From a virus: a DNA stretch of 40,884 nt. The position numbers and the translations under genes were made by a program. The notes under the pieces were generated by a model. It saw only the letters and a program-made list of their open reading frames with translations, searched no databases and was not told the origin of the DNA. Shown here in pieces: positions 1,838-20,550 of this stretch (positions are counted from its first letter, which is position 1; every line of letters begins with the position of its first letter). The stretch covers positions 1 to 40,884 of the IMG/VR virus record IMGVR_UViG_3300005548_000153; one strand, written 5' to 3'.

Positions 1838-4800
1838 TTATTTAGAAACACCTGCGCCACGGAAGCGGCCGGCTCCATACCAGCGGCCAAACCTTGCGGC
1901 TGCGCCTGAGTCAAATGGCCCGGCAGTAGTGAATGCCGTCCTGCGCGTGATTGTCATGTTCTCATCAACCGCATTGAACATGGGCGGATAGAGCGAGGCG
2001 GGATAGTGCAATGGTGTGGCTATTCCGTTCGCTGCAGATCCTGGTACGGGCCTGAGGGTCGATGAGTCATACGGCTGCGTATTGGTAAAGACGAAGTTTG
2101 CCGGATTCGACCAGCCACCAATCTTTTGCTCTGCAAAGTGGCTTCCGCCCATATCGAAATACCGAGTAGTTTCATTCAGGCCAGAAGAGTAGTTACCCGT
2201 TCGGACACCAATCTGCTGTTGAATTCCTGTCGAGAGTGAATACTGGCCTGTATGCACAACGTTGGTCTGGTAGTTGACCATTCCTGTCGGCTGCGCATCA
2301 TGAATGGTGCATCCTCCGTAGGAGCATCCGGCGTTGTTATTCCACCAGATGATATTGTTTGCGAAGAATCCCTTAGGCCAATCTAAGGGCTGGGCTCCAT
2401 TCGAATTTCCTCCGATGGAACTATTTCTGACATCTTCAAAGAGCGCGGGGCCAGTGTAGGGGCAGATGAAATTGTTGTAGGAGTAAAATCCGTTATGCTG
2501 CCCGGTAAGAGAATTTTCAGAGTTGGTCATTGCCAACCCGGTACCGCAGTTCCCTCCACTTGTATTGAAGGTGTTGCCTACAACGAAGAAGGAGTATTCG
2601 TGCTCCTGCTGAAATGCCGCGAAGGTCGCTAGGCCACCGAATGCTGGAGGGCCATCTGCCCCGACAAAGGTGCAGAAGGGATAGTTCGAGGACCCATCCG
2701 AACAGGTGGTGTGATCCCAGTTTGCGGTAGGACCGAATGCGCGATTCGGGTCTTCATAATAGGCGTTGTCCTGAACCTCTGCATCTCCGCCAAGAATCGA
2801 AGCGGAGCCGTATGGAGCTACAGACCGGCAGAGGGAGTACATGAAGAAGGAGCGACTTCCGCGATAAGAGAAGCAGTTCGTACCATTCGATCCCTGAACT
2901 GCTCCGTCTTCTAGACCAAAGATGAACCAGTCGCGCACATCCTGAAGGTAGATCGGATGTTCCGTGAAATCAGTATTGATCCCATATCCCTCGTAGTGAT
3001 TGCCCTCATAGTAGCCATCGAGAGAGCAGTTCCTGAGATAGCCACCCTTGCTGGCGCAGTCCGACATGCCGGGATTCGCCACATTGATTGCGCGAGTACC
3101 GATGATCGAATACTGCTGGACAGAAAATGGGCGCACTGAGTTGGAATTAGAAAATACACTCGTACTTCCACTGGGAGGAGCTTGACCGGGGAGATAGTAA
3201 GGAACATTCTCGGTTGCGTTCTGGAACCGAATTCCCGCTACGGCCACATGGTGCATGGGCTGGAGGCCGTTGTGGTAGTTATCGGATTGTGGGAGAGAAG
3301 GAGGAGATCCGGTTATGGAGTGTAGAAAACCCTGCCCCGTGAAGGGATTGGTGTTTATATTCCCTTGCGAGTTCAAGCCATCAATAATGGGAAGGTCCCC
3401 ACTCGGAGCCGGGATGCCACATTCCAGAAGCGCTGGAACGTGAATCGCGTTGGTGGTCCATGTAGTGTAGTTATTGGGAATCCTCATCTCCCAATAGTTG
3501 CGGATCAGAACAGGATTTCCGCTAGAACCACTTTCTCCATGAATACGTAAGATGCTCCCCCATGGATAGTTGGTCGTCGGGATATCCTTTGGCCCAGCGT
3601 ACGTCTGTCCGGGACCAACCTCAAAGACCGTTCCTCCGGCTGCGGTCATAACAGGATCAATCTCGCAAGGCACCTGTTCTACCTTGTCCGGGTTCTGCGC
3701 TGGAGGCGATCCCGCTTTCACATAGATTCGTACCCAATTGCAACTAGTGGGGTCTTTATCTGAGCAAACAGGGATCTCATAGCCACCGGTTTTAGTCCCC
3801 GGATGAAAGATGGCTTGCGGAAGCTTTCCGCCATTGTGGACGAAGGTATCGCCAGCAGGAGCCGCGAAAGTTTCCACGGACGCATCAGGTCCACTAATGC
3901 CAGCATCGGGGATTGGATTTCCCCATAGCGTGTACTGATCACTGCTAGCCCAGTTGATGTTGAAGACGGGAATGTCGGTCTGGCTTGTGTAAGCCTGCCT
4001 ATATCCCGGAGAAGGACGCGGCAGACCCTTCTTCCCGCTACCCGCGCCGTCCTGACAGACCTTATAGAGCATCTGAGCCGACTTTGTGGGATCGGTAGCA
4101 GAAGTAGCCTTCAGAGTGAAGGCCATTGGCGATGAGAAGGTAGGAAATGTGCTAGGCGCGGTTAGTGAAGTATAAGAGCAATCAACATCCGGCTCATTCG
4201 GACCCATCTGCACAAAGACGCCTCGGGAAGAGGTCGTAAGCGTCGGATGCCCTTGGTAGCAGGTCGCCGTATGAAGGTCAGGATTGCAGGGTGTGCCCGA
4301 GCCGTTGGCTTCCTTCTTCGTGTCTTGAAGAAAGGCCGTAACGTGATTCGTACCCGTCGAGGTGTCGATCACTTCCCAAATCATGTTGTCATTGCGTCCT
4401 GGTCCGTCGATGATCTGCATGTACCCCGGCGATGCATTCCCTGACCCTGCCGGAAAGAGACTAGCGATATCGGTATCGCAGAGACTTGGCGAAATCAGGA
4501 ATGAGATGGTGGTGGAGGTCGTCTGCCATACCTGACAGGCTACAATCGCACCTGAACCGGGAAGGGCACGGAGACGCACGATGTCCTCTTCCTGCGCTGT
4601 TGTATTGGCCGGAAGAGTGAAGGTTGCCAGCGACCCGTCCGAGGTCCATGCGCCGAGGTTCTGTTGTTCATAGATGGGCTGTACCCAATAACTGATTTCT
4701 TGACCCGACAAGACAGGCAGAGGGTAGTCGTTGTTCGGACCATCCTGTGTATCGATCTGCCGATAGACGAATCCGCCAGGCCCCCATCCACCAGGAACAA

Positions 4801-6244
4801 TGCTAGAATACTGAAGAGCTCCGCGATTCCATGCGCCGCCCGAAGGCCGCGAGATACCGGCAGCATCCACGTTGTAAGGGGCGGAGAGACTCAGAGCGGC
4901 AGTTACATTCGACGTGTTGCCGGTCAGCTTGAAGTTGTAGCTCGGCCAGTTGACGAACGGATTAGCCTGACCAGTCAGCTTTATGTCTCCCGTCCCGGTG
5001 TAGCCGTAGTTGACGGTACCGGAGTTGATGATGGTGTTGTAGCTTTCGGTCGCGTTCGGGAAGACTCCGGGGCCAGCTACCGGAGAAGGCGAGACTGAAT
5101 CCTGGCTGTCGATAATTCCAAAATAGAGGCTTCCTTGCTCGTTATAGGTACCGGTGCAAGTGCCATCACAATAGGGCGCGAAGTGGTTACTATAATCGGT
5201 CTTTGCTCCAACCCATGTGTTGTCGATGACCTGGAATCCGGTCATGGAGCTGCCAGAGTTGGCAACGACGATCGTCCCCGACGACACTCCTGGACGAGTC
5301 GAGGTAGGCAGTTGGAACATGACGTTGTTGAAGATTTTCCAGTTTGTAGCGGTACCGCCGTTTAGGATGCTCCAATACCCGGTACCCTGGATGTCTTCGA
5401 TGAGGTTGTTAGAGAAGGTGAAGTTATTCATCTGGTTGCCGTCACCGAGCCAGAACTGGCCGTGACAGTTCGCCGAGGAAGCGTTTTGCTTGAAGTGATT
5501 CAGGTTGTAGGTTTCGCCGTCTCCGTAAGGCGTGTCGATGAAGTCACACGCTGAATCGTGCATGTAGTTGTGCTCGAAGAGGAGGTTGTTGCACCCATTG
5601 CGGCAATAAAAAGTATGCTCGTTTGAGTTTGTGAGCGTGTTCCCGGCGTCCCCCGCGCCCGCTATCTCCACATAGCGAATAACCCATCCTGTGGCTCGTG
5701 TCGCGCCTGTGTCATAGGTTGAATTTACCCACAAAACGCCATAGGTAGTAGCGCTCGTGCTCGAGGCCATCATCTTGATGCCGCAGTCCGAAGCGGCTGC
5801 GTTGACTGCAGGCGAAATACCGCAACCAGCGGTGGTTGTCCTTCCGTTGCCATCGAAGGTGAAGTACCCCTGCCCGCCCGTAGTGCTTACGGCCCCTGCC
5901 ACACCCGCAAAGATAGCCTGGGAAGCGCCCATGGTTCCAGCATTCCAGCCGGAGGAGATGTCGTTCGAGCATCCATCACCGGTGCGCCCATAGTCATAGG
6001 CTTGCGCCTTCTTGATGATGACCCGCGTCGTTCCAGAGGTCGCCGTTGTCGGCGTGTAGGTGCCGTAATTGCCGTCGGCTATATAGTACGTGTCGCCGCG
6101 CAGGGGAGCCGTTGGAAGCTTCTGCATAGCGTTGGACCAATTGGAGCCATCCTTCGAGCCAGCGCCCGAAACAGATACCGCATGGCAGGCAGCTTGCGCG
6201 ATTGAAGGGAGCAGCAGCAATGCCGCGAGGAAAACCTTACGCAT
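1838..6244 (-). CDS. Exported double beta-helix protein, tailspike or depolymerase candidate
   Basis: I start this 1468-residue protein at the ATG at 6244, because it overlaps the previous stop as TAATG; a GTG nine bases upstream is the alternative. It opens with a textbook signal peptide, MRKVFLAALLLLPSIAQA, followed by ACH. Residues about 30-480 look like a right-handed parallel beta-helix, with repeated NN/SN turn motifs (LLFEHNYMHD, FTFSNNLIED, WKIFNNVMF). An Ig-like or linker region follows. A second helix-like region lies at about 870-1440 (VAVAGIRFQNAT, DWFIFGLEDG, FVVGNTFNTSGG). Pectate-lyase-type helices are common in phage tailspikes that cut surface polysaccharide, and also in secreted polysaccharide lyases. 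It ends the leftward virion gene array. Many paired cysteines suggest oxidation outside the cytoplasm. Which sugar it binds, or whether it is catalytic, cannot be seen. Confidence 0.8.
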   Translation of the reverse strand: MRKVFLAALLLLPSIAQAACHAVSVSGAGSKDGSNWSNAMQKLPTAPLRGDTYYIADGNYGTYTPTTATSGTTRVIIKKAQAYDYGRTGDGCSNDISSGWNAGTMGASQAIFAGVAGAVSTTGGQGYFTFDGNGRTTTAGCGISPAVNAAASDCGIKMMASSTSATTYGVLWVNSTYDTGATRATGWVIRYVEIAGAGDAGNTLTNSNEHTFYCRNGCNNLLFEHNYMHDSACDFIDTPYGDGETYNLNHFKQNASSANCHGQFWLGDGNQMNNFTFSNNLIEDIQGTGYWSILNGGTATNWKIFNNVMFQLPTSTRPGVSSGTIVVANSGSSMTGFQVIDNTWVGAKTDYSNHFAPYCDGTCTGTYNEQGSLYFGIIDSQDSVSPSPVAGPGVFPNATESYNTIINSGTVNYGYTGTGDIKLTGQANPFVNWPSYNFKLTGNTSNVTAALSLSAPYNVDAAGISRPSGGAWNRGALQYSSIVPGGWGPGGFVYRQIDTQDGPNNDYPLPVLSGQEISYWVQPIYEQQNLGAWTSDGSLATFTLPANTTAQEEDIVRLRALPGSGAIVACQVWQTTSTTISFLISPSLCDTDIASLFPAGSGNASPGYMQIIDGPGRNDNMIWEVIDTSTGTNHVTAFLQDTKKEANGSGTPCNPDLHTATCYQGHPTLTTSSRGVFVQMGPNEPDVDCSYTSLTAPSTFPTFSSPMAFTLKATSATDPTKSAQMLYKVCQDGAGSGKKGLPRPSPGYRQAYTSQTDIPVFNINWASSDQYTLWGNPIPDAGISGPDASVETFAAPAGDTFVHNGGKLPQAIFHPGTKTGGYEIPVCSDKDPTSCNWVRIYVKAGSPPAQNPDKVEQVPCEIDPVMTAAGGTVFEVGPGQTYAGPKDIPTTNYPWGSILRIHGESGSSGNPVLIRNYWEMRIPNNYTTWTTNAIHVPALLECGIPAPSGDLPIIDGLNSQGNINTNPFTGQGFLHSITGSPPSLPQSDNYHNGLQPMHHVAVAGIRFQNATENVPYYLPGQAPPSGSTSVFSNSNSVRPFSVQQYSIIGTRAINVANPGMSDCASKGGYLRNCSLDGYYEGNHYEGYGINTDFTEHPIYLQDVRDWFIFGLEDGAVQGSNGTNCFSYRGSRSFFMYSLCRSVAPYGSASILGGDAEVQDNAYYEDPNRAFGPTANWDHTTCSDGSSNYPFCTFVGADGPPAFGGLATFAAFQQEHEYSFFVVGNTFNTSGGNCGTGLAMTNSENSLTGQHNGFYSYNNFICPYTGPALFEDVRNSSIGGNSNGAQPLDWPKGFFANNIIWWNNNAGCSYGGCTIHDAQPTGMVNYQTNVVHTGQYSLSTGIQQQIGVRTGNYSSGLNETTRYFDMGGSHFAEQKIGGWSNPANFVFTNTQPYDSSTLRPVPGSAANGIATPLHYPASLYPPMFNAVDENMTITRRTAFTTAGPFDSGAAARFGRWYGAGRFRGAGVSK

Positions 6245-7884
6245 TAGCTGCACCCCGTAATGATTCCGTTCACGACCGTCAGCGTTGTTGTCGACGCGCA
6301 GGAGCCGGTAAATCCTGCCGCTCCGCTGTCCTGAATGTCGACGCCATTTGAAGAGAAGACAGGGATGTGGCCCGAGGTTCCTGCTGTGCCTATGCCTACT
6401 ACACTCACCGCCCCGGCGTTGTTGTTATTCATGCGGAAGCGATGCGCCGTAGAGTCTGCCCAGAACCCATCAACACCAGACGCTCCCGAGACGGCCGTCC
6501 CTTCAGTACCGGAGAAACCGAAGCCTGCGCCGGATGTATCGGTAGAGTGGAAGGCGGGCGCATAGAGATCCTGCGAGGAAGTCACCGCGCCTGCGTTGGT
6601 TGTGGTGTCCAGAGGACCATTGCCAATGGCTGTCGAGCTCGTCGCAACGGGGATCTTTCCGGTTGTCAGGCCAGAGATGCCCCCGCCGCCAATCGAAGCG
6701 CAGCCCGTAGCGTTGCCATTGGCTAGAACGCCTGTAGGCGCCTGCCCGGTTGTGCAAAGTGTAGGCGTAGCAGCAAGAGCGGTTGCCGTCGCTGCGTTAC
6801 CGGTGGTGCTCTGGTTCAACGTCGGGATGAAGGTAGATGGTATTTTGTTGGTGGCGTCGTAGGATGTGAGCCACGAAGTTCCACTTGAGTTTGGTATCCC
6901 CGCGCCCGGATAGACCATGCTGCTGCCTGTACCGGAATCGCAGGTTCCATTCCCACGCATGTAGTTCGACCCGCAGGTAGTCCAGAGAGCGGAAATATCA
7001 GCCGCCAACGCGCTCGCCCATGCGGAGCCAGTCCACTTCTGTGGGCCTGTGGTGGTTGGGTTCGTTCCTCCACCGCCGCTGAAGGTGCAGGTTGTTCCGG
7101 TGCAACTTACGCCCGGCCCTGAGAAGGTAAAAGGCCCATTGTTGGCGTTGATGCTCGATACGCCAGTCAGAGGAACAGAGCACGTCCCACCCAGAGAGCA
7201 AGAGGTTGCGTTGATGGTGATCGCAGAATTCGCCAGTGCTGAGTTGGGAATGGGGCTTGCAGAGACTGCCAATGTAGGAGTGGTGTCATGCGTCGTTACC
7301 GAGGGCACCAGCCATGCAGGCCAGCTTCCCGTTGACGCTATAAAGTCTGTGACGGTCCCCGTTCCGGCGGCACCGCAGGTTCCATTGGCTTGCGGAACTG
7401 CCGTGCCTGTGCAGGATCCTGAGAAAAGGGCGAAGATATCGCTAAAGATCGCGTTCCTCGAGACGGCCGTATTCAGGCTGTAAACGAGGCCGGGGCTTCC
7501 AGGAAAAGTTGCCGTCCCGCCGCCGATGCCGGTGAGGGCGATCGTATAGGTTCCCAGAACCTTGCCTGAGTTGCTGACTGAATAGGTGTATAGTCCCGGG
7601 GAGGCCCAGAAGCCAAAACGCCCATGAACATCTGCCTTGATCGGCTGCGAGATAGGCTGCGTCAGTCCCGGATCAGTGTAGACATTCACAACGTTGGTGC
7701 AGGGAGATCCTACCGCGGGGTAAGAACAGACCTTTACCGAAGCGAATGGAAGAGTGAACAACGGCGCCTGTGCTCCCGGAGGAACATTGTTGGCTGAAGT
7801 CACCACGTTTTGATCGAAGCGCGCTCCCTGGCCCAGTGCAGACGCACACAGACACAGGGGCGCCATGAATGAAATCAGCTTCAT
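6244..7884 (-). CDS. Exported fibre-like protein, paralogue of the next gene
   Basis: This 546-residue protein starts at an ATG six bases after GGAGG. Residues 1-18 form a signal peptide ending ASALGQ. Residues about 20-120 carry a domain shared with the 893-residue neighbour: FDxxVxTSAxNVPxGAQAP, then a Cys pair (CSYPAVGSPC), YTDPGLTQPISQPI, and GRFGFWASPGLYTYSV. The Y-D-x-x-L-T-x-P plus GRF motif is typical of phage tail-fibre N-terminal or linker domains. The rest is low-complexity Gly/Ser/Thr-rich beta sequence like fibre shafts. The C-terminus ends in a short motif, TVVNGIITGCS, also shared with the neighbour. I infer a receptor-binding or adhesive fibre; the signal peptide is unexpected for a virion part. 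Confidence 0.75.
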   Translation of the reverse strand: MKLISFMAPLCLCASALGQGARFDQNVVTSANNVPPGAQAPLFTLPFASVKVCSYPAVGSPCTNVVNVYTDPGLTQPISQPIKADVHGRFGFWASPGLYTYSVSNSGKVLGTYTIALTGIGGGTATFPGSPGLVYSLNTAVSRNAIFSDIFALFSGSCTGTAVPQANGTCGAAGTGTVTDFIASTGSWPAWLVPSVTTHDTTPTLAVSASPIPNSALANSAITINATSCSLGGTCSVPLTGVSSINANNGPFTFSGPGVSCTGTTCTFSGGGGTNPTTTGPQKWTGSAWASALAADISALWTTCGSNYMRGNGTCDSGTGSSMVYPGAGIPNSSGTSWLTSYDATNKIPSTFIPTLNQSTTGNAATATALAATPTLCTTGQAPTGVLANGNATGCASIGGGGISGLTTGKIPVATSSTAIGNGPLDTTTNAGAVTSSQDLYAPAFHSTDTSGAGFGFSGTEGTAVSGASGVDGFWADSTAHRFRMNNNNAGAVSVVGIGTAGTSGHIPVFSSNGVDIQDSGAAGFTGSCASTTTLTVVNGIITGCS

Positions 7885-7910
7885 GCCGTTCCTCCAAAAA
7901 TTGTTGTTTA

Positions 7911-10592
7911 TTAGCAGCCGGTGATGTTGGTGATGATCCCGTTTGTTACGGTGAACACACAGGCCGCGCCTGTCTTCGTACCGCTGAATCCAGTGACAGT
8001 ACCCAGCGTTCCCGTCGGATCAGCCGTGACGACACGTGTCCCAGTTCCTTGGAGAGCCTGAACTAAGAAACTAGGAGAGAAAAACGATGTTGAGGCACTG
8101 GCAGAAAACGACAGCGAGGTTAGGGTCATGTTGATGGCCGAGACGACGCCAGTACCGATGCCGCTTGCGATTGTGGTGTTTCCAGTATTGGGGTTATAGG
8201 CGACATAGAAACCGATATTTCCGCCGGGTCCATCATCGCGGAGGAAGAAGTGTGTGTTATCGCCCTGATTCGCTACGGCCATCGGGCTGGGATAGGCTTC
8301 GAGAACAGTCCCACCCGCCAGAGGTTGTTGAATCCGCATCCCAAAGGCCCAAGGACCGCCTACATTCAATCCAATCGCACCATCAAGGCAAAAGCCGTTC
8401 GGAATGTTGCAGGTTCCTCCACCCTTGTACCAAGTGAAAGGGTTGTTATTTACGATCGAAGCGCCGAAGTAGGAACTGGTTGTTACACCGTAGCCTGAGG
8501 AGATCGCCTGAAAATAGGAATTCGTATTCTGCGTCGGAGAAGTATCGACCGGCCCAAAGACAGCCAGCGGTTCCACCTTACTCTGCATGTCATCCAAACT
8601 CACAGCCACATGACCGGCTACATTGGTCATCGTGTTCGGATAGAGCAGAAGAGAATTATTCGGGGCGATTGTCTGTACGCCATTTACGGTCGTGAGCGTC
8701 GTCCCTAATTGCTTGATGCGAGCTGTTGGCCAAATTGTGAAGCCGCCAGGGCCGAATGTATTGCCATCGGGCGAGTTGACCGCTCCTCCAACATCCACTG
8801 CGCCGACCGTAGTGATGGCTCCAGTTGCCGAACCTGGCGCCGAGGTGCAGTTGTTGTTATCCATCGGGCCGGTTGGGTAAAGACCGTTGTAAGCGCCAGG
8901 AACGAATCCACTTAGTTTGACGTAGCTGCTGGCGAAGTTCAGAGAGGATTGACCAAGATTGCAGAGCTTGATCGAGGATCCGTTCCCACTGACTTGCGCG
9001 TTGGTGACATGATTCTGACCGCCACCAAAGTTATGACGCCAAGGGTTGATAACTCCGCGAGCGCCGGTGAGCCACTGCGCTTCGTGAATGTGGGTTGCGT
9101 CTGTAGCCCCATAGACGAAATAGTCGGTGCGCCATGCATTCAAGTTGACGTTGACGATGCGATCAGCTTGAAGATCTGCGATTCCCCACGTTCCACCCTG
9201 TTGGACATAGCAACCGGCAGGGTGACCGTGCTGAAAGGTCGCGGTAAGGTTGTAGTTCCCCGCTCCATCCGAGGCAAAGGCGGTTGGAACGACGAACTCC
9301 CAAGTGGGGTTCTGGCAGACAAGGAGAGTCACCGCGGTTGGCGAGAAAACCGCTCCTGAGTCGAGATGGACGTTGACTGTCTTGCTTACTCCGACGCCGT
9401 TCGATGCTTGAATATCCGCATCCACGACTGTGATGGCATTTGTCGTCGTACCTGCGGACGTCGGCACCGTGATCGCCCCTGTTCCGAGGGGAGCGGCTGG
9501 CTGGCTGAGGGTCAGCAGGTGCTGGGTTGGATCATAAGCCGTGATGTTGCCGGTGTAGATCGAACTTCCCTGCGTATCGATCAAAAAACCGCCGACCATA
9601 ATGTCGTCCGGATTCAACGCCCCTGAGTAAGTGATGGTGGTCGCGCCAGGCGTAGGAGTTCCGCTTACAAGAATGGCGCCCTCTCGATTCGCGTCGTTGC
9701 CACCATTCACGCGGATGTTCGTGCAGCCCTCATCGCCTCCACCCCAGTAACCACCGTGACAGGCGAGATAGGAGTAGATATTCGCTGTGTCGTAAGGCTT
9801 ACCTGCATGGGTCGTAATGCCGATATCCTGCTGAATGGCCATCTGATGAAAGGCATTCGTATCGCTTTGAAGCGAAGTCGCCGTTCCGCCGGTAGGCTCC
9901 GTCGATTGGCTGGCATCTGTGTTGTAGCCATTGAAGTAAGCCAATCCGGTCCAGAGGCTGTTGCGCATGTTGTAGAAGTTCTGTCCCCAACCACTGGCCA
10001 CACCGTTCGCATTTTGAATAGGCAGGTTTTGCCCGAACTGATTGACGAAGGCGCACTGCCTGCCACCGCAAATTCCACGCGCAGGAGAGTTTACGGAAGG
10101 CTGCAGGAAGAGAGTGCGAAGCTGATCGGTGAAACTGCCCGTACCCTGAAAGTCAGTATTGTTCTTGTTGGCCTGAATCTCCTGAAGGTTATTGGCTGGC
10201 CCCGTACCTCCACCCCCACCGCCGCCCCCAGCAATGGTCGTCACGTAAGTGCCGATGTACTTCCCAGAGGGCGAGACGATGGAATAACTGTACTGACCCG
10301 GCGAGACCCAGAACCCGAACCTGCCGTAAATATCCGAAGTGATCGGGTTGGTCTGCGGGATCGTCAGAGCCGCATCTTGATAGATGGCAACCGTATTCTG
10401 GCACGGCTCCCCGTTGTTCGGGTAGGCGCAGATCGTGACTGTGGAGAATGGGATGGTATAGATCGGAGCCTGCGCCCCATAAGGGACGTTCGTTGCCGAA
10501 GTCATCACATGGGAGTCAAATCGAGCTCCTGTGGTCTGTCCAAGGCAAACTCCAGCCATGACGCTCAGTAGCGCCGCAATCAATCGTTTCAT
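7911..10592 (-). CDS. Exported fibre-like protein with Gly-tract hinge
   Basis: This 893-residue protein starts with ATG preceded by AGGAG. A signal peptide (MKRLIAALLSVMAGVCLGQ) leads into the same domain as its 546-residue paralogue: FDSHVMTSATNVPYGAQAP, CAYPNNGEPC, YQDAALTIPQTNPI, GRFGFWVSPGQYSYSI. A run of eight glycines near residue 130 then acts as a hinge to a unique central region of beta-rich sequence with several cysteines (ICGGRQC, ACHGGYWGGGDEGC). The end, FTVTNGIITNITGC, matches the paralogue. The mosaic of conserved ends and a variable middle is what phage fibres show when they exchange receptor-binding parts. A terminator lies just upstream, so this and the two following genes may form a separately regulated fibre unit. 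Confidence 0.75.
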   Translation of the reverse strand: MKRLIAALLSVMAGVCLGQTTGARFDSHVMTSATNVPYGAQAPIYTIPFSTVTICAYPNNGEPCQNTVAIYQDAALTIPQTNPITSDIYGRFGFWVSPGQYSYSIVSPSGKYIGTYVTTIAGGGGGGGGTGPANNLQEIQANKNNTDFQGTGSFTDQLRTLFLQPSVNSPARGICGGRQCAFVNQFGQNLPIQNANGVASGWGQNFYNMRNSLWTGLAYFNGYNTDASQSTEPTGGTATSLQSDTNAFHQMAIQQDIGITTHAGKPYDTANIYSYLACHGGYWGGGDEGCTNIRVNGGNDANREGAILVSGTPTPGATTITYSGALNPDDIMVGGFLIDTQGSSIYTGNITAYDPTQHLLTLSQPAAPLGTGAITVPTSAGTTTNAITVVDADIQASNGVGVSKTVNVHLDSGAVFSPTAVTLLVCQNPTWEFVVPTAFASDGAGNYNLTATFQHGHPAGCYVQQGGTWGIADLQADRIVNVNLNAWRTDYFVYGATDATHIHEAQWLTGARGVINPWRHNFGGGQNHVTNAQVSGNGSSIKLCNLGQSSLNFASSYVKLSGFVPGAYNGLYPTGPMDNNNCTSAPGSATGAITTVGAVDVGGAVNSPDGNTFGPGGFTIWPTARIKQLGTTLTTVNGVQTIAPNNSLLLYPNTMTNVAGHVAVSLDDMQSKVEPLAVFGPVDTSPTQNTNSYFQAISSGYGVTTSSYFGASIVNNNPFTWYKGGGTCNIPNGFCLDGAIGLNVGGPWAFGMRIQQPLAGGTVLEAYPSPMAVANQGDNTHFFLRDDGPGGNIGFYVAYNPNTGNTTIASGIGTGVVSAINMTLTSLSFSASASTSFFSPSFLVQALQGTGTRVVTADPTGTLGTVTGFSGTKTGAACVFTVTNGIITNITGC

Positions 10593-10643: not shown

Positions 10644-10673
10644 TCTGGGTGTAAGTTCTGGCTCTAACGGTGT

Positions 10674-11966
10674 CTATTTCTTGCTCAGCACCTTACTTTT
10701 ATTCAGGAAAGGATTCGCTAACTCCTGAGGAGTAAGGATTCTCCCGAAATCGGGTTTTGGGCCAGCGTCTCGGAAGCCTTCAAGGATGCTTACGTCAGTA
10801 GGTTTCCCTCTTAGGAGAGGACGACCAGCGATCACATCTCGCAAGCCTTCCATGATCTTTCCTGGCGCTTGGAGAGGCTTGTGCAGATCAAGGTCGAGCA
10901 TCTTTCCGATCCCATACGGCTTTTCAGCTTCGATCAGTGTGCTTCGCCCGCTTACTTGCTTTCCAATCCGCGAGACTTCGCCGAAAGATTTTCTAATAGC
11001 CGTAGGGTCAATACCTGTCGCCCTGAGCTCGGGGTCGAGGATCGACTTCAGCTGCTTCTCTTGAGCAAGAAGGTCCGCCTCATTGAGGCCCTTTTGCATC
11101 GCCAACTGAATAGCTTCGGGATTCTTGCTCTTCAGGCCTCGAAGGAGCGCGGAGTTCTGAAGGCGCTCGTTCTCCAGATCGGCAACTGTGCCAAAGCCCG
11201 TAGACTTATCGCCGACAGTATCGATTGCCTGTTTGTAGGGGGACCAGATCTCATTCTTCGCCGCTGGGATGCGGCCCTGCAGATCTTCTAGGCTTGTGGC
11301 TCCCTTAAGAAAGGGACGAGCGCCTTCAATAGCGGATAGAGTGCTGATCGCCTTAGGAGAACGCGGTCCAATCCGTAAGCCACGTAGGGCAGCCGCATTT
11401 GGATCGCCGACTGCAACGTTGCGGACTGTGTCAGCTGCCGCTCCCATGCCTCTAACTGCTGCGCCTGTTCCCTCGCCGAGGGCAAGTCCGCCGAAGAGTT
11501 CTCCGCCGAGTTTCGTCGCAGCATATCCGGGTCCACCATCTCTGACATCATGATACGCCTGAACCCCGCGATTCACGATAGGATTGGTGCCCTCATCACG
11601 CAGGTAAGTCGTACCGTTTGACTTCATGGGAGTATTCGGAAGATCCGGGCTACCCGGAACCATATCCAGGATGCCTTTGGCCGTATTTATGGGATGGACC
11701 AAGGGCGCGCCGATCGCTCCTACGACCGACTTTAGGCCTGTCTCTAGCAACGGCTCTTTCGGAGAAGTGCGCGTATTCGCGTCAAACGAATCCTGCACTC
11801 CCTTGAGAAATGACTTCGGCTGCTCTGCCGCAGTCATCGCAGAAGCAGGAGCAGTGGGCTTATCCCATTTGTCAAAGTCGGCAGGCAGCGTCTTGGGCGG
11901 CGCTTGATCCCATCCGTTGAAGTCTGCGGGGAGCGTAGCGGGAGGCTTTATTGCTGGAGGTGCCAT
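10674..11966 (-). CDS. Putative internal virion (ejection) protein
   Basis: The 430-residue product starts at an ATG behind AAAGGGG and overlaps the previous gene by 19 bases. The N-terminus has two tandem copies of LPADFxxWDxxP (about residues 12-36), a repeat I associate with podovirus internal proteins. An Ala/Gly-rich region follows (residues about 100-185, with alternating small residues), then a helical, charged C-terminal half. No catalytic motif such as a transglycosylase Glu signature is recognisable. Three such proteins in a row between the tail and fibre genes match the place of the ejection proteins of P22- and T7-like phages, which leave the capsid ahead of the DNA and line a channel through the envelope. 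The function is inferred from position and composition. Confidence 0.6.
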   Translation of the reverse strand: MAPPAIKPPATLPADFNGWDQAPPKTLPADFDKWDKPTAPASAMTAAEQPKSFLKGVQDSFDANTRTSPKEPLLETGLKSVVGAIGAPLVHPINTAKGILDMVPGSPDLPNTPMKSNGTTYLRDEGTNPIVNRGVQAYHDVRDGGPGYAATKLGGELFGGLALGEGTGAAVRGMGAAADTVRNVAVGDPNAAALRGLRIGPRSPKAISTLSAIEGARPFLKGATSLEDLQGRIPAAKNEIWSPYKQAIDTVGDKSTGFGTVADLENERLQNSALLRGLKSKNPEAIQLAMQKGLNEADLLAQEKQLKSILDPELRATGIDPTAIRKSFGEVSRIGKQVSGRSTLIEAEKPYGIGKMLDLDLHKPLQAPGKIMEGLRDVIAGRPLLRGKPTDVSILEGFRDAGPKPDFGRILTPQELANPFLNKSKVLSKK

Positions 11967-13435
11967 CCGTCAGCCCCTTTCACATACGTATGACCTTGAT
12001 AAGTTCTAGTTTCCTGAGTCCCTTGCGTAGAAGGCGACTTAGTAGCCGTGCGCCCACCCTTCCCACCAACAGACAGGCCGCCCGCAGTCGTCGGAACGCT
12101 AGGAGTCAGGCGAGAGAGCACGCCGTTGATTTCCTTCAGTTTGTTGCGAACGATGGCCGGTGAGTCTCCAGCGGTCGGGAGAGTCTCAAGCATGCGTTGC
12201 GCCTGTGCCTCTGCCGCCGTGCCGCCTGTCGTAGAGCGGAGAATGCCGATCTGCTCACGCAGTTGATTGAGTGCGCCAAGGGCCTGAACCTGCTGATCGT
12301 TCAGATTGCCTCGAACGAGTTGGCCGTTGACGTACTGGCCGATCGTAGAGTGTGGATCGCTCATGGCTGCGACCATCTTGGCATCAGAGAGCGCGCTACC
12401 TGAATTGTGCAGAGCTTCCAGAGCCGTCTGAGCGTGCGTTACAGAGCCTTCGAGATCGCGGAACTGGCCAACCTTGCCCTGCTGCGTGATGGCTGTCTTG
12501 GCACCTTTGAGGCCGCCAGTCGTAACGTTGCCCTCGTCATCCTGAAACTGCGGAGCGTTGGGCAGAGGATTGCCATCCGGACCGGTTCCGTAGAAGTTGG
12601 CATTTTGGTCATTCTGACGACGCTGTTCACCCTGGGCGCGAAGTCCAACGTTGGCCAACGCAATCTGCTGCTGACGCTCGAGGCGATGGATATGTTCCAT
12701 TTCCCTGTCATACTCTTGAGTGCCAGGCATGTATTTATTTTTGGCAATGTCGCCAAAAATCTTGGCCTTCTGAGCGTTAGCTTCATGGATGAAGGTCTGC
12801 GCCGCCGCCTGGTGATATGCCATCGTATCCGGATCATCTTCGGTATTAGGAAGGCCAGTTTCTTCGTCATACCCGGTAACGTTGATTCCATGCTTACGTA
12901 GATCCGCAGCAGCCTTCTCTCGCGCAATCTGAGTCTTCTGCTGCAGGCCAGCCCTCGCAATATCGGGACGCGCCTTCGTGTAATCGGTGAGGGCGTTTTC
13001 CTGTTCGGTCTTGGCCTGCGAATACTGATTCCCAAGCTCCTGACCTAGATAGCCTTGTTCTTGCCCTAAAAGCCGCCTGTGGTTCTCTTCAGTTCCGGGC
13101 GTGAGCGCTGCCGCCCGAGGCGCAATGATCGACTCAGCCACATTGCCAACCCGAGCCAGCCCGCGCAGGAGTGGGTTCTTGATCTGAGAGATGCCCGAGC
13201 CAGTATCATTCAGCCGTTGCAATTCGTCCTGATGCCCAAGGATGGAGTTGCGGGTGTTCTGCACCATCGGGTCTGGCGTTTTGGTAACGATTGGGCCAGC
13301 CGCATTCGGAAGGACTGGAGCCACTATGGGTTCAGGTGGGGGAGGAGGAGCGGCGGACATCGCTGCAATAGCTGATGCAGCCGGAATCGGAAGCCGCTGA
13401 AGGTCTTTGTAATCGCGGATGAGGGCGTTGGCCAT
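11948..13435 (-). CDS. Putative internal virion protein, coiled-coil rich
   Basis: This 495-residue protein has an N-terminal Pro-rich segment (PPPPPEP near residue 30). A long alpha-helical middle rich in Gln, Ala and Glu follows (about 120-260, including QEQGYLGQELGNQYSQAKTE), then more coiled-coil-like sequence and a Ser/Thr/Gly-rich tail. No signal peptide or membrane segment is seen. Its ATG follows the stop of the upstream gene directly. Composition and position, in a run of three helical proteins after the tail nozzle gene, fit a DNA-ejection or injectisome-like inner capsid protein. I recognise no enzymatic domain. Alternatives are a tail-fibre chaperone or an assembly factor. Confidence 0.6.
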   Translation of the reverse strand: MANALIRDYKDLQRLPIPAASAIAAMSAAPPPPPEPIVAPVLPNAAGPIVTKTPDPMVQNTRNSILGHQDELQRLNDTGSGISQIKNPLLRGLARVGNVAESIIAPRAAALTPGTEENHRRLLGQEQGYLGQELGNQYSQAKTEQENALTDYTKARPDIARAGLQQKTQIAREKAAADLRKHGINVTGYDEETGLPNTEDDPDTMAYHQAAAQTFIHEANAQKAKIFGDIAKNKYMPGTQEYDREMEHIHRLERQQQIALANVGLRAQGEQRRQNDQNANFYGTGPDGNPLPNAPQFQDDEGNVTTGGLKGAKTAITQQGKVGQFRDLEGSVTHAQTALEALHNSGSALSDAKMVAAMSDPHSTIGQYVNGQLVRGNLNDQQVQALGALNQLREQIGILRSTTGGTAAEAQAQRMLETLPTAGDSPAIVRNKLKEINGVLSRLTPSVPTTAGGLSVGGKGGRTATKSPSTQGTQETRTYQGHTYVKGADGWHLQQ

Positions 13436-13987: not shown

Positions 13988-13997
13988 GGCCGACCCC

Positions 13998-14390
13998 CTA
14001 AAGTTCTTTCGCGAAACAAGTCCAACGTGATTCAACCCAGCCAAAGACTTTTCTCAGCCTTCGACCGAAACTCTTCGATACCTGCGGAGGCATCCAGCAA
14101 TGGGCATCGGTATAGCCCTGCGCCAATAGAAGGCCGTGCATCCCAAAATGCAGCTTGGCCAAAGTCTCCATGCGCCAGGCGGGATTTCTCCATTCCTTCT
14201 GCCCGAGGAAGTAAATCTCCACAGTCTTTCGTGCGAGAACTGCCTGAACAGGCACGTCATTTTCATCGACTGCCACAAGCAAGCTCACAAACTCCGGCTG
14301 CGTGAGGTCGGGAAAGGGATAGTCAAAGCCCTGCGCCGCGTGCATCTCTCTTAATGCCGATTCGTCTTCCGGTCGGTACGGTCGGATCAT
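13998..14390 (-). CDS. GNAT-like acetyltransferase-fold protein in the virion cluster
   Basis: The 130-residue protein begins MIRPYRPEDESALREMHAAQ, the usual beta-1/alpha-1 opening of GNAT proteins. A strand pattern follows (EFVSLLVAVDENDVPVQAVLARKT), then a C-terminal helix and strand (LLLAQGYTDAHCWMPP). The glycine-rich acetyl-CoA pyrophosphate loop (Q/RxxGxG/A) is not clear, so activity is doubtful. Its ATG overlaps the upstream stop as ATGA. GNAT-like proteins of unknown role are often encoded among podovirus head and tail genes. It may modify a virion or host protein, or serve a structural purpose. Confidence 0.6.
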   Translation of the reverse strand: MIRPYRPEDESALREMHAAQGFDYPFPDLTQPEFVSLLVAVDENDVPVQAVLARKTVEIYFLGQKEWRNPAWRMETLAKLHFGMHGLLLAQGYTDAHCWMPPQVSKSFGRRLRKVFGWVESRWTCFAKEL

Positions 14391-14911
14391 TTGCGAATCG
14401 GTGGCGTCGAACTGTTTCTGTAAGTCGCAGTCCCAAAGGCTGCAGTTCCTTGTGTTGATTGCATGGCTGGCCCTACGTGCGTCCCTGAGCCAACAGGCTG
14501 AGGAGTTGATCCTCCGTGATACACATCCGTCGACGGTGGCGAGCTTGGGTAGGCGTGATTAGACTTCCAGTAGTACGGTCCCGCTCCCAGATAGACTCTG
14601 TGGTTCTGCGATGCGCCCATGTCGATCTTGTGTGCGTTCTGAAAGTCCTGCGTGCGCGAGTAGTAGGCGAAATAGTTGATCCCGCGATAGGCTGGCGCAT
14701 TATCGACAATCTGAATGTCGTGAAACCCGTCTGCTTCCGTCACCGACATGCGGCTGATCGGCGACGGGGCTGCTTGCTGTGCTCCTGTCGGGTCGGTATT
14801 GCCCTGATCGGCCTGGCTGTTGATGGCGCGTTCGACTTCATCCATTGCCGTTGCAAGCTTCGGGTCTAGATTCTTGATATGGGGTTTGTAAGGTACTTGG
14901 AAGCGCGCCAT
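14387..14911 (-). CDS. Putative virion protein with an Ig/Fn3-like beta domain
   Basis: The 174-residue product starts with an ATG overlapping the upstream stop (TAATG) and ends overlapping the GNAT gene (ATGA), so it is tightly coupled on both sides. The N-terminal 45 residues look helical (LDPKLATAMDEVERAINSQ), and residues about 55-125 are strand-rich with aromatic residues (FHDIQIVDNAPAYRG, YFAYYSRTQDF, HRVYLGAGPYYWK), reminiscent of a fibronectin type III or similar sandwich. The tail is Gly/Ser/Thr/Pro-rich. I infer a minor tail or decoration protein that joins the nozzle to fibres or other ligands. No family is firmly recognised. Confidence 0.6.
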   Translation of the reverse strand: MARFQVPYKPHIKNLDPKLATAMDEVERAINSQADQGNTDPTGAQQAAPSPISRMSVTEADGFHDIQIVDNAPAYRGINYFAYYSRTQDFQNAHKIDMGASQNHRVYLGAGPYYWKSNHAYPSSPPSTDVYHGGSTPQPVGSGTHVGPAMQSTQGTAAFGTATYRNSSTPPIRK

Positions 14912-17900
14912 TACTGCCTCTGCCCGGTTATTGGTGCGTTCGGGTCGTTGAGTTGATAGACAATCGTGGCCTCAGCTAGTCTCCAACGAGCACCGTCGTC
15001 GCCGATACCCAAAAATCCACGTCGGCCGGTAATGTTGATGGGCCATTCCGATACAGGAGATGCGACCAAAGCAAGATCTTGCGCTTGGACTACGACAGGG
15101 CCATCCGATAACGTTCCAGATTGAAGTCTCGGAGCTATCACACCAGCGCCGGAGATCGTGAGGCCCAGATAGCTGAAAGTTTTCTGCCACATCGACAGCG
15201 CAGCCGGAGGAAAGGTATTGAAGCCGCCAATATTCCCCATATCGTCATCCGCAACGCCTGGAACCGTGTCGAGACGATAAAACTTTGCTCCAAAGGTGAA
15301 GCGCGTACCTGATCTTGAGCCTGCAACCCAGTTCAGAGGCCGTCTCCATGGGCACCACTTCGGAGGGCCGTCAAACTGAACCTCGTGATAGTCGTAAACC
15401 TGCATGGACTTGTTGCCATTGGCGTCGACCAGGCCCATATAGACCCGCTCGAAAGTGGGATCGTTCCACATCGCCGTGATTCCTGCGTAATTCCTCCACG
15501 TCGGCGCAATGATTGCGCTTACGTTCGTGGGGACGCGCCCGGAGTACCAGTGAAACCCTTCCGGCCCAGCGAAGGCGAACCATCCCTTGCCGATGACGAC
15601 CGAATTCGCGTCGAAAGCGCTGCACTTGTCGGCGATCCCGTTGACATCCCAAGAGGAAGGCTCGGTGTTGCCGATCTGCTGAACCGAATACAAACCCTTT
15701 TGAGTGATGAAGTGAAGCGACTCCTGCAAAACAGCCGTAGCGCGGAGTTCCGTTGCGTCATCATTCGGACCCGCATTTCCTGTCAGTGCGTCGTAGGCTT
15801 CGGGATTCTGCACATAAGACCATCTTGCAAGAGGATTGCGCGCCGGGTTGTCGGCGTAGATCATCTGCAGATCTCTTACCGAGCCATTCACCGTCACCGT
15901 CAGCGTCATATCATCGGGGATCGTGGAAGGCATCGGGTTATTGAACGTGCCTGTGACGTATCCGATTCCGCCAATCGATAGTGTTGAAGAAAATCCAGTG
16001 CTCGCCGAGCTGATCGAGGCCGAAAGCGAGCTCGAAGCGAACCAGGCCCGTAGTGAATACCTAAGACCGCCCTGAAGGATGCCTACGCCCTGGCCGGTCT
16101 GTGCGGCATTCTGTGAAATGCTCCCACTACCCGTCAACACCGGCATGATGCCCGATTGAACCACTGACAAGGAACCGACCCCGGTCCATCCCTGAGGATA
16201 TGGACTTCCAGGAAGCGTTCCGCCATCCATGCCCATGTTGAGCAAGCCGAGGACGGTGTTCGCCTCGCCAATCCACAACATACGGTCGCCGTACCAGTTC
16301 ACACCACGCGGAAGGTTCAAGGCGATCTGCTGAATCAGGTTGTTGCCGGGGATATCGACAGCGAGGCCGCTAAGAATGGCGTCGTTGGTGAAATTCATCG
16401 TTCCCGATGTGGTTACGTTGTCGTAAACGACCGTCGCTGTTCCAAGAACTTCACCGTTGATGCGCGGAACGATCGGAAGCGTAAAGTAGCGTCCACCATT
16501 TGCGCCGGTGAAGGCAATCCCGCGAGCGACGACGTTTGCCGGCCCGATTGCAAGTCTGTCGAACTTGAGCGCGCTCGTGTTGGCGGGGATGGTGAACTTT
16601 GTGATCGGTCCAGCCTGCGTCGTCAGTCCGGTCTTGGTGATGAAATAAGGAAACGCCAGATAGGTCCCGGGAGACATTGAAACAGCAGTACCTGCGAAAG
16701 TGATCTGCCCACCGCTGGAGTCTCCATAGATGGCCGCTGGATCAAAAACAAATGTCGTGCCTGCCGTGATGCCGGACGCATTCTCTGCCGTCGCTGGGAA
16801 CGTCACGGACGGATCAAAGCCGGTGATGGTAAACGAGCCGCTATTTCCGCCTGTCGCCGTCGCAATGGTGCGGTTGTCGCCGTCCATGGCGCCGTTTGCG
16901 TTCAGAGTGCCGTTGATGTTGATCGACTGCCCTGCAACGGGCGGGACGCCGGAGAGGACCACGTAGTTGTAAGTTCCGATGCCACCAGTCAGAGACGTTT
17001 GGGTAATCTGGAGGTCGCCGGAGTCTAAAGCCTGGGTGATCGGCCACGAATTGTTGTAGCTTGAGACGCTTGTCCCGCTGATCGGAATACTGCTGCCAAC
17101 GACGAGCCCTGGAACTGAGGTCGCAAAGGTAATCGTGGCCTGCGTGATCTGATACTGGCCTGTAATTGCAGCGTCCGAGCCGCCGCGGTTCTGGCTTCCC
17201 GATTCCGGTACGATGAAAGTGAAATACCACCGTTCAGCCGAAGCGCCTGCGAATGGTGGTACGCCCAGACCAATCGAAGTTACCTGCTGGATGCCATTGT
17301 ACTGCGCGAACTGCGCCGGCAGATTGGTGACGTTGACCAGTAGTGGAACGCCGAGAGAAAGATTCTCGTTGTAAGTGCTGGTAAGAACTGGATCGCCGCC
17401 CGGGAAGTGGCCTGCGCGAGCGTTCGCGGTATAAACCGTGATGACATTCCCTGGAGTCGTTGAACCGGGCCCAGCCGAAAGCAAGATGCCATCGAAAAAT
17501 CCCAGTTGCCCCGGAAACCCCGGATCCAACTGAGTGATCGAAACAATATCGTAGGAGTCCCCAGCAATCAGGACTGGGGTAAAGCTCGGAGCCGCCCCGG
17601 GACCACCTTGGGAGACGCGGTACATGTTCTGGCCGTCCCACTGCCGCGGAGCATCACAAGGCCCTTGAGCGTTGAAGAAGGCCATGTACTCACGACCGTA
17701 AGCCGTAACAGAGTTGACCTTGCTCCCTGCCTGCACCTTGTCGATGATCGCGTAGGCACCGCCGTTGCGCGAGACGTAGATATTGCCGCTCACGTCCATC
17801 GCCAGCACATTCAATGTGCCATCTTTGGCAGTGAATTCCTTGTCCCAAACGATCTCTGCGGGCAGGGTCGTCGTCAGCCGAAACGGAGGACGTGTCTCCA

Positions 17901-18030
17901 TGCCATCGACCATGTAAACCAGATCCGCACAGTCAGGGGCATAGTTCGGCGGGCACTTCTCAGGGAAGCAGTCCGTCTTTTGTCCCAGAAACTTCGAGAA
18001 GGTGACAGTAGAGATCTTGTCTACAGCCAA
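14911..18030 (-). CDS. Large tail protein, nozzle / tail tubular protein B-like
   Basis: The 1039-residue protein starts at a TTG at 18030, with AGAGGCGG upstream and a 10-base overlap with the previous gene; no better in-frame start exists. The first 130 residues (FLGQKTDCFPEKCPPNYAPDCADL, METRPPF) and later segments with regular propeller-like strand repeats (YISRNGGAY-type, GWFAFAGPEGFHWYSG, WNDPTFERVYMGLVDANG) match the character of T7 gp12 or P22 gp10-type nozzle proteins. Those are beta-rich hexamers closing a short tail. The position directly after the adaptor-like gene supports this. There is no tape-measure gene or sheath in the window, which also argues for a short tail. Residues 280-480 hold repeated Ig-like stretches (GTSVSSYNNSWPITQ, SININGTLNANG). 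Confidence 0.65.
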   Translation of the reverse strand: MAVDKISTVTFSKFLGQKTDCFPEKCPPNYAPDCADLVYMVDGMETRPPFRLTTTLPAEIVWDKEFTAKDGTLNVLAMDVSGNIYVSRNGGAYAIIDKVQAGSKVNSVTAYGREYMAFFNAQGPCDAPRQWDGQNMYRVSQGGPGAAPSFTPVLIAGDSYDIVSITQLDPGFPGQLGFFDGILLSAGPGSTTPGNVITVYTANARAGHFPGGDPVLTSTYNENLSLGVPLLVNVTNLPAQFAQYNGIQQVTSIGLGVPPFAGASAERWYFTFIVPESGSQNRGGSDAAITGQYQITQATITFATSVPGLVVGSSIPISGTSVSSYNNSWPITQALDSGDLQITQTSLTGGIGTYNYVVLSGVPPVAGQSININGTLNANGAMDGDNRTIATATGGNSGSFTITGFDPSVTFPATAENASGITAGTTFVFDPAAIYGDSSGGQITFAGTAVSMSPGTYLAFPYFITKTGLTTQAGPITKFTIPANTSALKFDRLAIGPANVVARGIAFTGANGGRYFTLPIVPRINGEVLGTATVVYDNVTTSGTMNFTNDAILSGLAVDIPGNNLIQQIALNLPRGVNWYGDRMLWIGEANTVLGLLNMGMDGGTLPGSPYPQGWTGVGSLSVVQSGIMPVLTGSGSISQNAAQTGQGVGILQGGLRYSLRAWFASSSLSASISSASTGFSSTLSIGGIGYVTGTFNNPMPSTIPDDMTLTVTVNGSVRDLQMIYADNPARNPLARWSYVQNPEAYDALTGNAGPNDDATELRATAVLQESLHFITQKGLYSVQQIGNTEPSSWDVNGIADKCSAFDANSVVIGKGWFAFAGPEGFHWYSGRVPTNVSAIIAPTWRNYAGITAMWNDPTFERVYMGLVDANGNKSMQVYDYHEVQFDGPPKWCPWRRPLNWVAGSRSGTRFTFGAKFYRLDTVPGVADDDMGNIGGFNTFPPAALSMWQKTFSYLGLTISGAGVIAPRLQSGTLSDGPVVVQAQDLALVASPVSEWPINITGRRGFLGIGDDGARWRLAEATIVYQLNDPNAPITGQRQ

Positions 18031-18848
18031 GTGCGCCGCCTCTGTCGAGAAAAGCCATAGCCGCGCCGTCTCGTCTGTGCGCGGTTCTCTCGTTTGGCTG
18101 CGCGATTCGCAAGAATGTTCTTCTCTTCATCGAGATCAGCCTTCAGTCCTGCCGCGGCGTTGGCTCCCATCCTGGACTTCACATCTTGATAGGCAATCCA
18201 GAGAGCAAGACATTCACCGGCCTTCGCAAACCAGATCGTCGGCGGCGTCGGATTTTGCTCGGTTGGCTGCGCCAGTTTATCCAGAGATGGGATAAATCGA
18301 ATCCGAATGTCTGTCGGCTGGTAAGCGCCTCCGAGAATGTAGATGCTGTTTTCGCGAAACTCCCATTCTCCATAGACTGATCCATACGTCCCGCCATTCC
18401 AGCCATAGTTCCATGAGTTTCCGAGGCCGCCGAGTTTTTGCTTCATCTCGTAGAACGGAACATTCTGCCCTGTCGCCCTCTGCCACAACTGCAAGGGCTC
18501 AAGCAGGCTCTCGGGCATCGTCGGCTCGTCATAGTGAAAGCCTGATGCATCGTCGAAGCCGTCATATCCAAGCCGAGACTGCGCGGATGGATCGGAATAC
18601 ACCGCGCTCGCCGGCACAGAGATGATCTCCTCGGCATACATCGCCGACTCGACGTTATTGTCCTCGAGCCAGTTCGCAAGCCTCCCATAACAGAGGTTGA
18701 GAACCACCCAGGTGCGCGGATCGTCACTCTTGAGGATCTGCCCGGTGGTTCCCCCCTGCATGTCATTGATCAGGAAGCGAGCGTATTCCAAGATCTCGTC
18801 CGAGCTATAGAAGACCTTCGAGCCTGGAAATGGATCGACCAGCGGCAC
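18021..18848 (-). CDS. Head-tail adaptor / tail tubular protein A-like
   Basis: This 275-residue protein starts at GTG 18848, directly behind the stop of the preceding gene and with GGGAG upstream. The N-terminal two thirds are mixed helix and strand with many aromatic residues (YSSDEILEYARFLINDMQGG, NVPFYEMKQKLGG). The last 60 residues form a charged helix with an Arg-rich end (RENRAQTRRRGYGFSRQRRRTW) that could contact DNA or the portal. Gene order, portal-scaffold-capsid then this then the nozzle, is that of podoviruses with a dodecameric adaptor ring. I infer an adaptor; sequence similarity alone is too weak to be certain. Confidence 0.55.
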   Translation of the reverse strand: MPLVDPFPGSKVFYSSDEILEYARFLINDMQGGTTGQILKSDDPRTWVVLNLCYGRLANWLEDNNVESAMYAEEIISVPASAVYSDPSAQSRLGYDGFDDASGFHYDEPTMPESLLEPLQLWQRATGQNVPFYEMKQKLGGLGNSWNYGWNGGTYGSVYGEWEFRENSIYILGGAYQPTDIRIRFIPSLDKLAQPTEQNPTPPTIWFAKAGECLALWIAYQDVKSRMGANAAAGLKADLDEEKNILANRAAKRENRAQTRRRGYGFSRQRRRTWL

Positions 18849-19541: not shown

Positions 19542-19551
19542 GTGTTGCTCC

Positions 19552-20550
19552 TTATTTGATGAACCATTTCGAACCGTCCCAGCACGCTTGATAGGGAGTG
19601 TCCGCTACCGCTGTCATCGCTGCCTTGATGTTTCCTGCCGTTGTCGTCGTCCATGCACCATCTGCAATGAACGTCAGACAGCCGATGAAATTTGTGGGTG
19701 CCGTGATCGTGGCGATTGCAGCCGTACCGGTGATATGAGTAAGCCCAGCAATCGGCGCAATCGTGCCAGCCGAAGCAATCGCCGTTCCGAGAGTCGTGCC
19801 CGGCATGACTGCGCGGAACGACCCTTGAACGTCCAGCTTGACCCCAGAGTCAACGACGGCCGTGCCGAGATTCACATCTCCGCTCCCAGCAAAGATCGAA
19901 AAAGCCAAGGGCTCTCCGAAAGGCTGAATGGAAAGGCGATTGTTGCTGGAGTTGGTCGCGATCTTGACGTAGCTGATATCGAACGAGTCATTCGTGAGCT
20001 GCGCGTTGCCAAAGATCATGTTGGCAATCGTCGTATTGCCCATGTTCGGCAGAAGGATGCGAACTGGGTAAAAGTTCGTCTGTGAGGCTTCCGTGTCGTT
20101 CAGGAAGAGCGTCGAGGCCGTGGTTGAGGTAACCGATGAAGACGCGATCGAAGTGAGTGCGGAGAAGGTCTTCGCTCCAGAGAAAGTCTGCGTTCCGCTC
20201 AGGGTTCCGACATTGGCCGGAATGATTCCCGAATCGGCTCCATTCCCTGCCCCGTCGCCATTGATGAGGTTAGTTGTGCTGGGGATTGTGGCGCCACCGC
20301 CGCCTCCGCCACCACCGCCTGTGCAAGGGTTGGCTGTGCCGCAGACATGATATTTCCCATCAGCACCGAGGCCTAAGAGAAGGAAGGGCTGCGCATTGTC
20401 GTAAGAAGGTCCCGCGGTGCCTGTAGTCGCAAGAGAACTGTATGGACCACCGCCTGTGTCCGACACGAGGCCGATCATCGGCGGTGCATTGAAATAGGTC
20501 TGACCTGATGCCGTACCGACCGCAAGGAATAACAAAGCCGCTAGTTTCAT
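19552..20550 (-). CDS. Exported fibre-like protein with poly-Gly hinge
   Basis: The 332-residue protein starts at an ATG that overlaps the upstream stop (ATGA). Residues 1-16 form a signal peptide (MKLAALLFLAVGTASG, then QTYF). A short N-terminal domain (about 17-80) leads to a run of nine glycines, then fibre-like repeats (LINGDGAGNGADSGIIP, GTQTFSGAKTFS). The last 80 residues form a compact beta domain ending in WDGSKWFIK (AGTIAPIAGLTHITG, TTAGNIKAAMTAV), a C-terminal domain I associate with phage fibre or decoration proteins. It is inserted between capsid and tail genes rather than with the other fibre genes. As with those, an export signal on an apparent virion protein is odd. Confidence 0.7.
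   Translation of the reverse strand: MKLAALLFLAVGTASGQTYFNAPPMIGLVSDTGGGPYSSLATTGTAGPSYDNAQPFLLLGLGADGKYHVCGTANPCTGGGGGGGGGATIPSTTNLINGDGAGNGADSGIIPANVGTLSGTQTFSGAKTFSALTSIASSSVTSTTASTLFLNDTEASQTNFYPVRILLPNMGNTTIANMIFGNAQLTNDSFDISYVKIATNSSNNRLSIQPFGEPLAFSIFAGSGDVNLGTAVVDSGVKLDVQGSFRAVMPGTTLGTAIASAGTIAPIAGLTHITGTAAIATITAPTNFIGCLTFIADGAWTTTTAGNIKAAMTAVADTPYQACWDGSKWFIK

Follow-up and report, generated by a model that had tools for sequence, protein, structure and literature searches.

According to standard teaching, tailed phages assemble wholly in the cytoplasm; the tailspikes of P22 can join finished heads in vitro. The closest described counterparts of the fibres analysed here are the P22-type tailspikes (P22 gp9, Sf6 gp14 and those of the cyanophages Pam1 and Pan3), which share with them a head-binding fold at the mature N-terminus, modular bodies and a gene that adjoins tail-closure genes. 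The tail spikes of Pan3 and Pam1 also show sequence similarity to the acidobacterial head-binding domains. Unlike P22-type tailspikes, which are synthesised in the cytoplasm without a signal peptide, the acidobacterial spikes add a predicted cleavable Sec signal peptide and a Cys pair in the domain, and their bodies are Cys-rich with an even number of Cys. The coat proteins of filamentous phages are virion proteins made with signal peptides; those phages, however, are non-tailed and assemble at the membrane, whereas in the present case the phage is tailed, with a dsDNA genome, and its spikes are soluble. WceF of Pantoea stewartii is an exported, trimeric protein of tailspike-like fold, but it carries a Tat signal, belongs to a bacterial exopolysaccharide cluster and is not described as part of a phage virion (PMC7949094). 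Nearer in host are Tunturi 1 and 2, podoviruses of Tunturiibacter psychrotolerans (PMC11924767), which infect the same bacterial family and have five fibre or virion-module proteins with signal peptides, one of them with an N-terminal domain that looks similar by eye; their genomes, however, measure 63 kb and they are distant kin of the phage studied here. Our literature search on exported tail fibres found no description of such proteins.

The window, that is, the whole stretch of 40,884 nucleotides that was analysed (IMG/VR record IMGVR_UViG_3300005548_000153), encodes four such proteins, all on the minus strand. F1 (1838–6244) is a fibre-like protein of 1468 aa with 30 Cys in its mature part and an N-terminal signal peptide at 6191–6244 (MRKVFLAALLLLPSIAQA, predicted cut before Ala); its ATG at 6244 is closely preceded by a weaker GTG at 6253. 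F2 (6244–7884, 546 aa) and F3 (7911–10592, 893 aa) are fibres with a head-binding domain, and their signal peptides lie at 7831–7884 (MKLISFMAPLCLCASALG) and 10539–10592 (MKRLIAALLSVMAGVCLG), each with Gln after the predicted site. F4 (19552–20550, 332 aa) is fibre-like, stands away from the other three, upstream of tail genes, and has its signal peptide at 20503–20550 (MKLAALLFLAVGTASG, again followed by Gln). A Shine-Dalgarno-like sequence closely precedes the start codon of the signal peptide in F2, F3 and F4. The first-pass annotation had reported clear cleavable signal peptides on these four genes; they are present as described, and similar starts are kept across diverged homologues in Terriglobia phages and prophages. 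What that annotation did not contain are the Terriglobia host group, the occurrence in cultivated isolates and the orthologues without signal peptide that serve as natural controls.

Around these genes, two tail-module genes without signal peptide (1039 and 275 aa; 14911–18848, minus strand) mark where, by synteny, the fibres lie in prophages, and the terminase large subunit (phrog_979) is encoded at 27406–29043 on the minus strand. The phage looks temperate, given, in the region 35217–40127, a repressor-like ORF recognised by eye at 36718–37443, a RecE-type exonuclease at 38645–39562 (phrog_412) and an O-like replication protein at 35217–36068. The best explanation of the window is a temperate podovirus-like phage of Terriglobia whose F1 to F4 are tailspike or fibre proteins. 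PHROG and Pfam scans gave no match for the window fibres, tblastn of F3 against INPHARED returned none, and PDB searches with the portal and with the 1039-aa and 275-aa tail proteins gave no useful match; a tail hub for the spikes to dock on was not recognised by sequence, nor were lysis genes recognised with PHROG. Three small ORFs at 30468–30794, 31586–31945 and 33005–33319 have signal-peptide or lipoprotein-like starts (MKTLAILLLAALPAMAQ, MRKALMSLTVAASLMLPVGC and MKTLIVLALLAGSALGQ) and no PHROG match, and the former two might be spanin-like. An OafA-like acyltransferase (509–1600; PF01757, E 1e-28) adjoins the fibre genes, with a tRNA-Met at 39–115; its layout, which we take to recall the Sf6 acetylase, suggests lysogenic surface conversion. 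A small gene that looks GNAT-like by eye (13998–14390) lies within the virion module, and related prophages and phages retain it; an acetyltransferase is also annotated at this place in Tunturi 2 and 3. An HNH endonuclease (22682–23218) is flanked by head genes of 427 and 430 aa.

Genes were called as longest ORFs, and signal peptides were scored with a von Heijne-type matrix combined with rules on the h-region and on charge. All four window fibres were flagged as Sec/signal peptidase I type, with a positive n-region, a hydrophobic h-region and, by this matrix, small residues at -3 and -1, the -3 residue not always being small at sites where Ala or Gly precedes Gln. Against shuffled sequences this crude score performed well for F1 (p 0.0004-0.006), moderately for F4 (p 0.005-0.07) and poorly for F2 and F3 (p 0.05-0.12). 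Since by itself it convinces for F1 alone, the case for signal peptides rests on the homologues. Other virion genes of the window received no such score, except for a flag on 11948–13435 that we regard as a false positive, as this start is barely hydrophobic and has a long charged n-region. By eye, the lipobox [LVI][ASTVI][GAS]C is absent from F1 to F4, and a lipoprotein reading was discarded for them; in a homologue from contig G006, ITSC could be a lipobox. A gene for what looks by eye like a lipoprotein-like SGNH hydrolase (L030, 382–1254) adjoins the fibre genes of G006 on the opposite strand.

A portal search returned ten related viral contigs, including G004, G005, G006 (about 46 kb) and G010 (27 kb), and fibre homologues in these four, as well as L014 and L015, have SP-like starts. 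Such starts are also found on homologous fibres without the head-binding domain. G005c and G004c are homologues of F1 at about 30% identity, with 22 and 16 Cys, respectively; the start of G005c, which has no positive n-region, is the least clear. In a 12-row N-terminal alignment (A2), Gln after the site and both Cys of the domain are invariant, while the sequence and length of the signal peptide vary. In line with this, the signal peptide is less conserved than the mature part in three related pairs (47/57, 33/69 and 56/86 % identity). The clearest case of drift is F4, whose signal peptide has 16 residues as compared to 22 in its G010 homologue, beside a mature start that reads Q[ST]YFNAPP in both.

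As for the mature parts, the domain is placed at 7525–7830 in F2 and, by AF2, Foldseek and hmmsearch, at 10218–10538 in F3, on the minus strand. A first AF2 model with the signal peptide included (12 rows) was poor (pLDDT 61), and its Foldseek search already gave the head-binding domains of the P22, Sf6, Pam1 and Pan3 tailspikes. The second model, built from 25 rows for the mature F3 domain alone with the signal peptide removed, reached a pLDDT of 92.4, and its top PDB matches were the head-binding domains of Pan3, Pam1, Sf6 and P22; these podophage tailspike and fibre matches had a probability of 1.00 with modest E values (4e-3 to 5e-2). Besides, hmmsearch with A4 retrieved the Pan3 tail spike (E 2.8e-5), and phmmer with the classic-type acidobacterial domain of L087 retrieved the Pam1 tailspike head-binding domain (E 1.9e-4). 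Judged from the model and from these profile matches, the mature N-terminal domain of F2 and F3 is a P22-type tailspike head-binding domain. The label 'fibre-like' given in the first-pass annotation thus gains a structural basis for these two proteins; no such domain was found in F1 or F4, and F1 looks beta-helical by eye only. The fibre genes sit in the tail and virion module, as is the case for P22-type tailspikes, and neither in the window phage nor in its relatives or Tunturi 2 was any fibre-like gene without a signal peptide recognised that could supply the main receptor-binding protein.

The two Cys pairs pointed out in the first-pass annotation, CSYPAVGSPC in F2 (C53-C62; 7699–7728, minus strand) and CAYPNNGEPC in F3 (C55-C64; 10401–10430, minus strand), lie within this domain, and Cys amount to 2.0% of the window fibres as compared to 0.37% of other virion proteins (1e-11). 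Even Cys numbers are favoured in exported proteins of Gram-negative bacteria (PMC7678975). The mature Cys count is even in 39 of 41 complete fibres with a signal peptide, some of them related to one another (binomial p=4e-10), whereas the full-length count, signal peptide included, is even in 21 of 41, as expected by chance. All 18 fibres whose signal peptide contributes an odd number of Cys become even upon its removal (4e-6). By comparison, control ORFs without signal peptide from phages and prophages, mostly of 200 aa or longer, comprise 32 even and 39 odd (Fisher 2e-8). Collapsing relatives into clusters, Tunturi 2 included, left 34 of 37 even (6e-8), and very loose clustering 17 of 19 (4e-4); related fibre pairs also differ by even steps (10/14, 22/30 and 6/4). 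The argument is statistical and, like several other counts given here, draws on related sequences, and the test was unplanned, having arisen during data inspection; the sole after-the-fact check, on the Tunturi 2 proteins with signal peptide, gave four even out of five. Even parity of the mature chain together with chance parity of the full-length chain reads as an in-sequence signature of signal peptide removal and full disulfide pairing.

Prophages and cellular genomes extend these observations to the host group. The domain was found in a phage-like cluster, flanked by bacterial genes, on a contig of Granulicella mallensis, and also in a Granulicella MAG; it occurs in 13 of 398 family genomes and in 22 of 397 order genomes, two overlapping samples whose weakest matches are doubtful. 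Homologues of VKOR and DsbA are present in four of four host genomes. L057, which bears both signal peptide and Cys pair, follows homologues of the window tail and small virion genes; in L036 and L058, which are placed equivalently by synteny, both features are missing, and the two proteins start with MSGIRYD and MAGIRYD, exactly at the mature end of their SP-bearing orthologues. The domain also lacks Cys in L065, a distant member without signal peptide. In L037, and in L054, L056 and L079, all with signal peptides, two Cys occupy other places of the domain, which we read as independent candidate disulfides. Across both subfamilies, at least two Cys occur in the domain of 27 of 30 members with a signal peptide versus 1 of 12 without (9e-7). 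A scan of viral contigs with the L047/L050 subfamily found no relatives.

The classic form of the domain served to judge specificity. In Terriglobia genomes a signal peptide precedes it in six of six matches, besides L087; among these spikes, L106/L083 (one gene), L107, L108 and L109 have a signal peptide and no clear Cys pair in the domain. L087 belongs to a P22-like prophage, where a head-closure Hc3 gene precedes it. In the P22-like prophage L090, the SP-bearing tailspike comes directly after the Hc3 gene (phrog_578, E 6e-94), and a DNA-ejection gene (phrog_598) follows at some distance. L194, from a phylum-wide search, has no signal peptide. Nor do ten INPHARED podophage tailspikes with the classic domain, some of them from metagenomes (nine scored, PAE2 by eye), and eighty IMG/VR relatives have no credible one: six flags among these 80 loci (scores 0.34-0.87) were dismissed by eye, five involving an upstream start before a MAVITP start and the sixth being placed inside the domain.

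Tunturi 1-5 are acidobacterial isolates (PMC11924767). In Tunturi 1 and 2, which form plaques, signal peptides are predicted on gp12, gp13, gp14, gp16 and gp17 of the virion module; none was scored on 14 other virion-module genes of Tunturi 2 or on the further ones scored in Tunturi 1. The fibres of Tunturi 3 have none, and Tunturi 3, 4 and 5 showed none on the virion-module genes scored, Tunturi 5 being read in part. As Tunturi 3 plates on the host strain of Tunturi 1 and 2, T. psychrotolerans X5P2, export appears to be a phage strategy and not a host need. The generalisation that all Acidobacteriota phages export their fibres was rejected in view of Tunturi 3, 4 and 5 and of L036, L058, L065 and L194. 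A Tunturi 3 fibre without signal peptide (L198, 14798–15538) shares 41 residues at 54% with F4, which indicates that fibre segments move between genes with and without signal peptides. Text searches in PMC11924767 turned up neither signal peptides nor virion mass spectrometry.

Taken together, the conservation of the starts, the domain Cys pairs that track the signal peptide and the Cys parity strongly suggest the export and periplasmic disulfides foreseen in the first-pass annotation, and the fibres are very probably exported and oxidised; cleavage in cells and the disulfide chemistry itself are predictions from sequence. We propose the following model. Each spike chain would be synthesised with a Sec signal peptide and cross the inner membrane, where signal peptidase I would cut before the conserved Gln (Ala in F1). 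The mature spike would then fold in the oxidising periplasm with all its cysteines paired, while DNA-filled particles devoid of spikes would form in the cytoplasm as usual. Lysis by holin, endolysin and spanin would mix both compartments, and virion assembly would end with the finished spikes docking on the tail hub through their head-binding domains. We assign a probability of about 0.62 to this whole reading, in which spikes are exported, cleaved, oxidised in the periplasm and docked on virions at lysis. The docking on fibreless virions, taken separately, seems reasonably probable, although it is odd that spikes and heads should meet only at lysis.

Of the three meanings considered in the first-pass annotation, the best fit is addition during exit, because it is with this mature domain that P22-type tailspikes dock on the virion and because no SP-less fibre-like gene was recognised in the virion module. 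The proposal of an adhesin or depolymerase remains a live rival and the main one: the proteins would be exported and never enter virions, having been coopted from tailspikes as free adhesins, depolymerases or esterases. In that role they might remove exopolysaccharide, make the receptors of infected or lysogenic cells inaccessible, or prevent progeny from sticking to debris. WceF of Pantoea, with its tailspike fold and Tat signal, is a host-encoded precedent (PMC7949094), some SP-bearing fibres give weak GDSL/SGNH esterase matches, and the OafA-like acyltransferase that adjoins F1 gives a hint of surface remodelling. We nevertheless hold it to be rather unlikely, as the docking domain is conserved and modelled as structurally intact and a different gene for the main receptor-binding protein was not recognised; moreover, forms with and without signal peptide are orthologous by position next to tail genes.

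The idea that the signal peptide is reused as an oligomerisation segment or anchor did not stand. The crude score of F2 and F3, which only modestly beats shuffles, speaks for hydrophobic N-termini that would serve cytoplasmic fibres as virion anchors or oligomerisation segments, but these N-termini change more rapidly than the domain and are of variable length, orthologues without them keep the domain and begin at its mature end, Cys within them fall outside the parity, and the domain is modelled at pLDDT 92 in their absence; we consider this reading very improbable. Less remote, but still improbable, is a mixed fate, in which leaky or late export would leave part of the protein in the cytoplasm, to be built into virions, while the exported part would have a different function. 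Single signal peptides can in general give dual localisation, and every sequence result is compatible with such a split; however, judging from parity, selection acts on the mature, fully oxidised form, and a reduced cytoplasmic pool of so Cys-rich a protein would be hard to fold.

Our analysis therefore leads back to docking at lysis as the preferred reading, and suggests that spikes are built outside the compartment of the particles and fitted later, which would be an undescribed route in tailed phages. On balance, such two-compartment assembly, with cytoplasmic particles and periplasmic disulfide-bonded spikes, may well operate in several groups of Terriglobia phages. Since Tunturi 1 and 2 are cultivated, the idea of exported spikes is directly testable. 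For annotation, a signal peptide on a fibre is no evidence against a role in the virion, and cysteine parity can flag exported fibres. If true, exported and oxidised tailspikes would break the rule of wholly cytoplasmic assembly, raise the question of how the spike pool is matched to the particle pool, and reveal a way for phages to employ disulfides in the proteins that bind receptors.
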